DNA of 50,809 nt from Cyanobium sp. PLM2.Bin73. Its GTDB lineage: Bacteria > Cyanobacteriota > Cyanobacteriia > PCC-6307 > Cyanobiaceae. The notes below the pieces were generated by a model, which saw only the letters and a program-made list of their open reading frames with translations, did not search any database and was not told where the DNA came from. The stretch is from positions 1-50,809 of the forward strand of contig REEV01000081.1 of assembly GCA_007694915.1 (NCBI GenBank), given 5' to 3'. The position numbers and the translations under genes are program-made. This document shows, piece by piece, positions 37,170-41,582 of this stretch; positions within the stretch are counted from its first letter, which is position 1; every line of letters begins with the position of its first letter.

Positions 37170-38345
37170 ATGAGCGCAGGGGCCATGGCGGTGCTGGGTC
37201 TGATGAGCGGCACCAGCGCCGATGGGGTGGACGCGGTGCTGGTCCGCTTTGCGGGTCCCTGCCAGCGCCCGCGCTGGCAGATCCTGGCCAGCCACTCCAC
37301 TCCCTATCCCAAGCCCCTGCGCCAGGAGCTGGTGGCGGTGGGCCAGGGTGCCCGGCGCAGCAGCGCTGAGCTGCTGGATTTGGCGGAGGCGGTCACAGAG
37401 GTGCAGGCCGCGGCCGCCCGGGCCTGCGACCCCGGCGCCCAGGCCGCTCTGGTGGGCTGTCACGGTCAGACCATCTGGCACCGGCCCCCCAGCCCGTCCC
37501 GGCGGGGGGCCAGCTGGCAGCTGCTCCAGGCTCCCTTGCTGGCCCAGCTGCTGCACTGCCCGGTGGTGCACGACCTGCGGGCGGCCGATCTGGCCCTGGG
37601 CGGTCAGGGAGCCCCCCTGGTGCCGGCGGCCGATGAGGCGCTGCTGGGGCGCACAGGCGGCTGGCGGGCTGTGCTCAACCTGGGCGGGATCGCCAACCTC
37701 ACCCTGATCCCGCCCCGCAGCGGTCCCGACCGGCGTCAGGTGGTGCGGGGCTGGGACTGTGGTCCGGCCAACAGCCTGGTGGATCTGGCCGTCAGCCAGT
37801 TCAGCGGCGGGGAGCAGAGCATGGATGCCGGCGGCAGCTGGGCCAGTCGCGGCCGGGTGGACGAGGCAACCCTGCAGCGCTGGCTGCAGGAGTCCTATTT
37901 CCAGCAGATCGGGCCCAAGTCCACCGGCCGGGAACTTTTCGGGCACGCCGATCTGCGCCGGCGGCTGGAGGATCTGGAGCAGGCGGCCGGCCAGCAGGGG
38001 CAGGCCCTGCAGCCGACCGACGCCCTGGCCAGCCTCACGGCCTTTAGCGCCGCCGTGGTGGCCCAGGACCTGGGCCGCGGCCCCTTGCCCGTGGAGTTGC
38101 TGGTGGCGGGCGGGGGCAGCCGCAACCGGGTGTTGATGACCGAGCTGCGCCGCCGCTGCCGCGGCGTGATCGTGCGACCCCTGGCGGAGCTGGGCATCGA
38201 GGGAAGCCAGCGGGAGGCGCTGGCCTTCGCACTCCTGGCCTGGTGGCACCACCACCGGCATCCCGGCAACGCCCCCGCCATCACGGGGGCCCAGCGCCCG
38301 GCGGTGCTTGGAGTGTGCGTCCAGCCAGCCGGCTCGGGCCCTTAG
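37170..38345 (+). CDS. anmK: Anhydro-N-acetylmuramic acid kinase
   Basis: 391 residues from ATG 37170 (ATG 37185 also possible). It phosphorylates anhydroMurNAc during recycling of cell-wall muropeptides. The N-terminal VLGLMSGTSADGVDAVLVRF is the family signature, followed by GCHGQTIWHRPP, VVHDLRAADLALGGQGAPLVP (about 131-151), the VLNLGGIANLTLIP strand, GWDCGPANSLVDL and the ASKHA-type VELLVAGGGSRNRVLM near 310. It ends 4 bp inside the convergent ribbon-helix-helix gene. Confidence 0.95.
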   Translation: MSAGAMAVLGLMSGTSADGVDAVLVRFAGPCQRPRWQILASHSTPYPKPLRQELVAVGQGARRSSAELLDLAEAVTEVQAAAARACDPGAQAALVGCHGQTIWHRPPSPSRRGASWQLLQAPLLAQLLHCPVVHDLRAADLALGGQGAPLVPAADEALLGRTGGWRAVLNLGGIANLTLIPPRSGPDRRQVVRGWDCGPANSLVDLAVSQFSGGEQSMDAGGSWASRGRVDEATLQRWLQESYFQQIGPKSTGRELFGHADLRRRLEDLEQAAGQQGQALQPTDALASLTAFSAAVVAQDLGRGPLPVELLVAGGGSRNRVLMTELRRRCRGVIVRPLAELGIEGSQREALAFALLAWWHHHRHPGNAPAITGAQRPAVLGVCVQPAGSGP

Positions 38346-38686
38346 TCGGGCCGCTGCAGGCGCAACCGCCGGGGTGCCGTGCGCAGGCGGCGGGTGCGCT
38401 GACGCTCCAGCTGCACCCGGAAGCGCTCGGCCGCCGCGGCGTCCGCTGCGGCGGCGTCTGCTGCGGCGGGGGCTGCGGCGGCGGGCGCCGCTGTCCCTCC
38501 CGGCCGAGGACGCTCGCGCTCGAGCCGCTCCACCCCCTGCTGGATCAGAACCCGGGCCATGTTGCTCACGGTGCGGGCTTCGATTTCAGCCAGATCGGCG
38601 AGACGGCGGCACAACTCCTCCGGGAGAACCACCTGGATCCTGGGCGACTTGGGACGCCCGCTGGAGGAGGTTTGCCGAGTGGCCAC
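38342..38686 (-). CDS. Ribbon-helix-helix (CopG-like) DNA-binding protein
   Basis: 114 residues. PRIQVVLPEELCRRLADLAEIEARTVSNMARVLIQQGVERLE (about 15-56) is a ribbon-helix-helix unit: strand, helix, turn (TVSN), helix. The C-terminal half has an Ala/Asp-rich linker built by a 15-bp tandem repeat (38439-38468, ADAAA twice) and an Arg-rich end (RTRRLRTAPRRLRLQR). Such proteins bind DNA as dimers. No toxin gene is next to it; the neighbours are anmK (convergent) and a small unknown gene (divergent, 233 bp). Paired direct repeats 45 bp upstream may be its operator. Confidence 0.83.
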   Translation of the reverse strand: MATRQTSSSGRPKSPRIQVVLPEELCRRLADLAEIEARTVSNMARVLIQQGVERLERERPRPGGTAAPAAAAPAAADAAAADAAAAERFRVQLERQRTRRLRTAPRRLRLQRPD

Positions 38687-38919: not shown

Positions 38920-39171
38920 ATGCCCAAGAGCCGCGAGCAGCGCCAGGCCGAGCGCAGCGACGTGCTGGTCTCGGCCGTGATCAGCACCTATCTGCTCACC
39001 CATCTTCACCACGTGCTGCAGCGCGCCGAATACGGTGCCCAGAAGGAGGGTCGCAGCGCCCTGGCGGCCAACTACGCCCAGCTGCGCAAGGTGCTCTGCC
39101 TGGACGCGCGTTCGATGGAGGACGCCTCGGCCAGCGGCACCCCGGTGAGCGACAGCCCCCGCGCCGCCTGA
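38920..39171 (+). CDS. Small conserved-looking helical protein, function unknown
   Basis: 83 residues, ATG 38920 with GAGG seven bases upstream. Charged start (MPKSREQRQAERSD), then VLVSAVISTYLLTHLHHVLQRAEYGAQ and a second helix LAANYAQLRKVLCLDARSM, with a disordered Ser/Pro/Ala tail. No signal peptide; the first helix is only moderately hydrophobic. I cannot assign a family. It precedes the Nif11-like gene by 115 bp. Confidence 0.72.
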   Translation: MPKSREQRQAERSDVLVSAVISTYLLTHLHHVLQRAEYGAQKEGRSALAANYAQLRKVLCLDARSMEDASASGTPVSDSPRAA

Positions 39172-39286: not shown

Positions 39287-39589
39287 ATGAGCAGCAGCAG
39301 CCCCCAGCCAGCCGCCACCGAGGGCGCAGTACCGACAGCCACCACCTCGAACACCGCCACCTCAGCCAACGCCGCCGCCCTCTACGAGCGCATCAGCGCC
39401 GACCCGAGCCTCACCCAGGCCCTGTTCCGCCAGGCCCTGCAGGATCCCGGTGGGGCCCTCGATCGCATCGTCCGCCTGGGCGAGGAACTGGGGCTTCCGG
39501 TGAGCCGCGAGGAGGTCAAGGCCCACGTGGCCGCCCTCGACGATGGCGCCAGCAAACAGTGGTTGCTCAAGGCCCGAGGCGGCCTCTGA
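39287..39589 (+). CDS. Nif11-like small protein
   Basis: 100 residues from ATG 39287. The first 36 are Ser/Thr/Ala-rich and unstructured. From ALYERISADPSLTQALFRQA to EELGLPVSREEVKAHVAAL (about 39-86) the sequence follows the Nif11 pattern: helix, 'Dp...aL', helix, 'lGlpvs.eE'. The protein ends in WLLKARGGL. Nif11 domains serve as leaders of secreted modified peptides, where a Gly-Gly marks the protease cut; here nothing but one Leu follows the GG, so a peptide precursor role is doubtful. The alternative is a stand-alone regulatory or binding domain. The family call is by eye. Confidence 0.68.
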   Translation: MSSSSPQPAATEGAVPTATTSNTATSANAAALYERISADPSLTQALFRQALQDPGGALDRIVRLGEELGLPVSREEVKAHVAALDDGASKQWLLKARGGL

Positions 39590-39715
39590 GCGGGGGGAGC
39601 GCTCCGGACGGTTGATGCCGCCGCCCTGGGCCAGGGTGAAGAACAGCCAGTAGCTGACGATCGCCAGGCCTGCCGCCACCACCAGAGCGGCCACCTGCTC
39701 CAGACGTTTGATCAT
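39362..39715 (-). CDS. Small membrane protein, antisense to the Nif11-like gene in its 3' part
   Basis: The frame opens at ATG 39715 and stays open to 39362 (117 residues). Only the first 40 or so look like a protein: a basic start (MIKRLEQ) and one membrane helix VAALVVAAGLAIVSYWLFFTLAQGG. The remaining part is antisense to the Nif11-like gene and may be an artefact of the GC-rich genome lacking stop codons. It is divergent from the ABC-F gene. Function unknown. Confidence 0.42.
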   Translation of the reverse strand: MIKRLEQVAALVVAAGLAIVSYWLFFTLAQGGGINRPERSPRSEAASGLEQPLFAGAIVEGGHVGLDLLAAHRKPQFLAQADDAIEGPTGILQGLAEQGLGEARVGADALVEGGGVG

Positions 39716-39854
39716 GGGGGCTCGGGGGCGGTTGCGGAAAGTCTGACGGAGGGGCCATGCCACACACGCCAACCCTCTCGGCAGGGATGATGGACCTGTG
39801 GCCGGTCCCAGCAGGGCCCCCGTTTCCGCCCTCAGCTCTCCGCAGTCAGATCCC

Positions 39855-41582
<1,728 letters not shown>

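Follow-up and report, generated by a model that had tools for sequence, protein, structure and literature searches.

Our analysis of a 50,809-nucleotide stretch of the 2.72-Mb draft genome of Cyanobium sp. PLM2.Bin73 (contig REEV01000081.1, hereafter the window) points, with a probability that we put at roughly 55%, to a stand-alone Nif11-type protein that acts through a free C-terminal W-x-x-K-A-R-G-G-L docking tail. The gene is retained almost universally and in conserved order, its product has a fixed end, the tail is under selection at the protein level, and the gene is present in genomes without detectable C39 or LanC-type enzymes.

The coding sequence lies at 39287-39589 on the forward strand (ATG at 39287, TGA at 39587-39589) and specifies 100 amino acids plus the stop. 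The frame of the Nif11-like protein read by the earlier note was confirmed, closing on KQWLLKARGGL-stop. Codons 1-25 (39287-39361, forward strand) form a Ser/Thr/Ala/Pro-rich extension that varies among orthologues and has low model confidence; the start of many orthologues (75-77 aa) adjoins residue 26 of the 100-aa protein, and the Ser/Thr/Ala N-terminus is a variable add-on. The earlier note had described the N-terminal third as disordered; it is these ~25 residues that are modelled with low confidence. Codons 26-88 (39362-39550, forward strand) encode the Nif11-like helical core, with the motifs LY..I, LFRQALQxPxG, I..xG and LPV, as delimited by the orthologues, the Pfam match, the structural model and hhalign. 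Codons 92-100 and the stop (39560-39589, forward strand) make up the W-x-x-K-A-R-G-G-L tail, defined by its conservation in 103 orthologues, and we refer to these proteins as the KARGGL family.

Nif11 domains are best known from the leaders of peptide natural products. The protein of the window matched PF07862 with 15.5 bits (E 0.022, residues 27-76), not reaching the Pfam cut-off of 23.8 bits, and TIGR03798 with 16.0 bits (E 0.011, residues 28-98), not reaching the cut-off of 32.3 bits. In a Nif11 search of its own genome, it was the sixth and last of six matches (14.9 bits, E 0.10), in a range where control genomes also give matches (E <= 1). At the level of the family, 15 of 29 members matched PF07862 at E <= 1, with a best E value of 6.6e-6. 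Single scans of 20 of the other 28 members of the 29-orthologue alignment found none above the cut-off (best 19.4 bits), and the best E value of the family search suggests that at least one of the members outside these scans does pass it. The family profile also picked up Nif11 leaders with residues after the double glycine in one genome (G120), and hhalign matched it to five such leaders, all from one genome, with a probability of 95.7 and an E value of 8.7e-9 over 51 columns. This profile-profile kinship extends to residue 88 only, the tail lying outside the match. Because 15 of the 29 members match PF07862, the profile finds the G120 leaders and hhalign gives such a low E value, the sequence resemblance of the family to Nif11 can be considered real and beyond chance. 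The HMM match that the earlier note had proposed to look for is present, although it stays below the curated cut-offs of both models.

An AlphaFold2 model built from ten sequences contained helices at residues 21-38, 40-52, 54-67, 74-83 and 87-96, with a mean pLDDT of 71.4. The pLDDT was 60 for residues 1-10 and 52 for residues 11-20, reached 80-88 per block for residues 31-80, and fell below 50 for residues 98-100; in this model the helix runs through residue 96 and is followed by a flexible end. A fold search with this fair-quality model returned nothing at E <= 0.001, which says little given the model quality, and a second fold comparison with the same model gave a best Z score of 2.8, to unrelated helical proteins. 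When the sequences of solved structures were searched, the only Nif11 chain found was PDB 9zn4 (E 0.088), a 77-aa “Nif11 domain-containing protein” that is similar in length and shows a weak profile match over positions 1-65, but leaves the tail of the KARGGL family unmatched. A designed helical repeat protein scored better than 9zn4 (E 0.0027), which was taken as a composition match.

The distribution of the gene was surveyed in the family taken as that of Cyanobium and Prochlorococcus (Prochlorococcaceae at NCBI, Cyanobiaceae in GTDB); good genomes are those with completeness >= 90% and contamination <= 5%. A search with the protein as query gave matches in 179 of 201 family genomes and in 128 of the 131 good ones. 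A profile built from 29 orthologues was run against 150 genomes sampled from the order and matched 149, all belonging to the one family; 142 of these had a single match at E <= 0.01 and the other seven had two to nine. The extra matches in two genomes (G141 and G156, which hold 50 and 14 Nif11 hits) end at profile position 65. In a class-wide sample of 290 genomes, 48 matched; 44 of these reach the last profile position, all in the same family, and the remaining four, outside the family, have E values of 0.0014-0.0046 and stop short of the tail. The KARGGL gene is a family-specific core gene of one picocyanobacterial family. Searches of viral sequences uncovered no relative among 26 pattern matches in viral contigs; 50,697 phage records gave nothing at E <= 1, and a PHROGs scan of three proteins gave nothing below E 0.07.

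The gene neighborhood is also conserved, the order kept in 88 loci being AnmK (+), RHH (-), P83 (+), KARGGL gene (+), TM gene (-) and ABC-F (+); these 88 loci include some genomes taken twice, and some missing neighbors are contig ends. In the window, AnmK (anhydro-N-acetylmuramic acid kinase) is encoded at 37170-38345 on the forward strand (PF03702, 309.3 bits; 85 of the 88 loci), the ribbon-helix-helix protein (RHH_5) at 38342-38686 on the reverse strand (PF07878, 59.2 bits; 77 of 88) and P83, a conserved 83-aa protein, at 38920-39171 on the forward strand (78 of 88). On the other side follow the convergent TM frame at 39362-39715 on the reverse strand, for a small protein that has a single hydrophobic stretch (MIKRLEQVAALVVAAGLAIVSYWLFF...; 87 of 88), and an ATPase that we take to be of the ABC-F type at 39798-41582 on the forward strand (PF00005 in two stretches plus PF12848; 87 of 88). 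RHH and P83 are jointly absent in 10 loci, not all independent, that retain the KARGGL gene, so these two genes need not adjoin it, and a conserved gene order is by itself no proof of a common function. Pfam and NCBIfam gave no match at E <= 1 to P83 or to the TM protein. The core of P83 reads DVLVSAVISxYLLTHLHHVLQRAEY...QLRKVLCxDARSM, and 14 of its 15 versions finish with -AA or -VA, possibly a tag for degradation at the C-terminus. The TM protein carries the motif LEQxxALVxAAGLAIxSYWxFF; about the first 37 codons of its frame (39605-39715, reverse strand) are conserved and its true 3′ end is uncertain, also in GC-rich loci.

Apparent absences were rechecked with the profile in 21 genomes that had given no match (20 of the 22 from the protein search, plus G225), together with one marginal and five divergent genomes. 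No orthologue was found by profile in any of the 21. Among them, G125 gave one weak profile match (E 0.05) and G120 gave eight, which include its Nif11 leaders with residues after the double glycine. The marginal genome (G184) holds the last 18 codons of the gene at a contig end, ending KARGGL (L104). In one genus (g44) the orthologue is absent from all four genomes. The flanking RHH, P83, TM and ABC-F genes are present in three of these four, and the absence in these three is therefore a true loss, from which it follows that the function is dispensable or replaceable. The place of the gene in g44 is occupied by a DUF2811 protein at one locus (L135, 1056-1262; PF10929, 83 bits) and, as judged by eye, by a DUF2811-like frame at another (L136, 1033-1236). 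Two further genomes that lack the gene (G225 and G021) lack its ABC-F neighbor too (at E <= 1e-100), and absence in both of these, as in the 76%-complete G125 of g44, is compatible with an assembly gap. The other 15 rechecked genomes without a match were 59-85% complete.

The strongest signal came from the C-terminal tail. The set of orthologues comprised 71 distinct sequences, then 80 including divergent members, and then 103 from 135 loci, this last step adding 20 genomes, most of them from g18, a divergent genus with small genomes. The stop falls at the identical residue in every one of the 103, and none has more than one residue after the double glycine, so that the lack of a core, which had been noted for the protein of the window, is common to all of them. 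Trp92, Lys95, Gly98 and Gly99 are invariant in the 103, and Ala96 and Arg97 are each kept in 102. The Gly-Gly-Leu end reported for the window is likewise found in 102 orthologues, the final residue being Phe in the remaining one; 100 of the 103 end in KARGGL, with KARGGF (G253), KVRGGL and KASGGL found once each. Among the 80 sequences of the intermediate set, pairwise identity averaged 0.89 over the last nine residues versus 0.58 over the rest, and every codon for Gly (four, at each Gly), for Leu (six) and for stop (three) was in use. Synonymous codons thus vary freely, and selection on the tail therefore acts at the protein level. A DNA search for KARGGL followed by a stop in 20 genomes of 15 genera returned one match per genome, always the KARGGL gene, and a reversed control pattern returned none in the same 20 genomes. 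The once-per-genome motif and the free synonymous codons rule out an origin of the GGL end by chance or at the DNA level. In divergent orthologues (L098, L101 and L102; g18) the core motif LFRQALQ is altered and the tail is unaltered. Judged from these alignments, the best-kept part of the protein is the tail, not the Nif11 core.

We favor a model where the protein is probably cytosolic and adaptor-like, and in many members ~76 residues long. Short helices in a Nif11-type bundle would present the uncleaved C-terminal peptide W-x-x-K-A-R-G-G-L-COOH, its free end lying at a fixed place, and the conservation of the tail suggests that it docks on a conserved intracellular partner. The helical domain might serve as a scaffold or as a second contact, and the KARGGL family and the peptide leaders may go back to a common ancestral Nif11 domain. 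Readings of the protein as carrying a degron, as a carrier or conjugated protein, or as a lost leader rank below this docking-tail reading.

A C-terminal degron, by which the tail would destabilize the protein or feed it to an AAA+ protease, is improbable but keeps some appeal, as the tail is conserved, flexible, free and unique in each of the 20 genomes searched. However, an invariant Trp at the ninth position from the C-terminus would seem to exceed what a simple end tag needs, and portions of the helical core are likewise conserved.

We consider it rather unlikely that the protein is a carrier or is conjugated, with a ligase charging its C-terminus, or with trimming to Gly-Gly followed by activation, as in PEARL carrier peptides or ubiquitin-like proteins. 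The RGG-L end resembles processed di-glycine ends. Carrier peptides without a core do exist for the PEARL enzymes, according to the accessible part of the source, but Lant_dehydr_N matched none of 37 genomes, a weak objection since the control genomes gave no match either, and the model is all-helical, not beta-grasp. There is a slimmer chance that the conserved RGGL end serves as a chemical handle, trimmed to Gly-Gly or receiving an added group; the protein would then be a picocyanobacterial carrier or covalent modifier based on a Nif11 helical fold.

That the protein is a RiPP leader whose core was lost, or an orphan leader retained by a local peptide pathway, is strongly disfavored. Its kinship with Nif11 leaders and its double glycine, placed where leaders have it, would suit such an origin, and its own genome encodes one C39 protein of transporter size (contig C88, frame of 725 aa). 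Yet a cut after the double glycine would free a single residue, and the 103 distinct orthologues all stop there. C39 and LanC were searched for in 37 chosen near-complete genomes carrying the gene, with a C39 threshold of E <= 0.001. No C39 (double-glycine) peptidase was matched in 15 of the 37, and no LanC-like domain in 33, including the genome of the window; such a domain was found in the other four. The C39 protease LahT reads Val-4, Leu-7 and Leu-12 and the ComA consensus has Glu-8, according to the portion of PMC6363468 available to us. The orthologues have Ala at -4, mostly Leu at -7, Trp at -8 and a variable residue at -12, and therefore fit the positions given there at -7 only. The lost-core leader was rejected on the coreless orthologues and on the genomes without C39 or LanC. 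Among the options raised by the earlier note, kinship with leaders and a stand-alone leader-related protein are retained, whereas a leader deprived of its core does not fit a gene that is near-universal and syntenic, has the same stop in 103 of 103 orthologues and is present in 15 genomes without C39. Relatives in which a core follows the double glycine, which it had suggested searching for, were not found among the 103, and of the transporters and enzymes that it had proposed to look for, the own genome gave the transporter-size C39 protein but no LanC match. Of the two observations that together would have refuted its reading, only the second was made: the family that keeps the GGL end does not behave like a precursor, but a weak relation to Nif11 exists.

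The last explanation, that the 3′ end owes its conservation only to an overlap with the convergent TM gene on the opposite strand, can be excluded, as the TM frame does overlap this end in 87 of 104 placed loci (73 of 87 in an earlier count), but all 17 loci without the overlap end in KARGGL and third codon positions within the tail vary freely.

The family can be placed beside known Nif11 systems. With the PF07862/TIGR03798 leaders (N11P; prochlorosin-type) it shares a helical N-terminal domain and a double glycine near the leader end, but it is coreless and scores below both cut-offs, and it is near-universal and usually present in one copy, whereas those leaders are paralogous and patchy. 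Its tail is WxxKARGGL, compared with ELSDEELEAVAGG in the leaders (motif from the part of PMC2887384 that could be consulted). A Nif11 frame in the genome of the window (L006, contig C58 15327-15452) ends in SGGLPTWRG and is possibly a leader with a six-residue core.

Picocyanobacterial stand-alone Nif11 proteins ending in GEYH/N are classed as group F, with their function given as unknown, in the accessible part of PMC10783134. As described there, they are also small Nif11 proteins with a fixed C-terminal end, but they differ from the KARGGL family in scoring clearly as Nif11 (the L145 protein reaches 56.5 bits), in having another end and in lying at another locus. One protein of this type is encoded near L006 (L003, contig C58 15629-15772) and others in five further family genomes (L137, L140, L141, L142 and L145), the fixed ends of the six being PGEYS, PGEYN, PGEYH or PGEYT. 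Nif11/cupin proteins (TIGR03890) and their cupin-less forms also occur in the same bacterial family and are likewise Nif11 proteins that lack a GG-core; they differ in scoring clearly as Nif11 (50.7 bits in the case of L138) and have no KARGGL tail. In the genome of the window, a Nif11 part lies inside a longer frame that by eye resembles the cupin fusion (L004), and in smaller genomes the Nif11 domain has ~60 residues and ends near GRRWGE (L138, L139, L143 and L144, one of them scanned).

The KARGGL family is a third stand-alone Nif11 group with a fixed end in picocyanobacteria, beside the GEYH/N group and the nif11_cupin relatives. We found no description of it in the open-licence literature, supplements aside, perhaps because its scores do not reach the cut-offs that the standard models set. 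Genes of the KARGGL type should not be counted as RiPP precursors. Present in nearly all sampled good genomes, the family offers a handle on the role of Nif11 outside leaders and on what the Nif11 leaders may have been recruited from.
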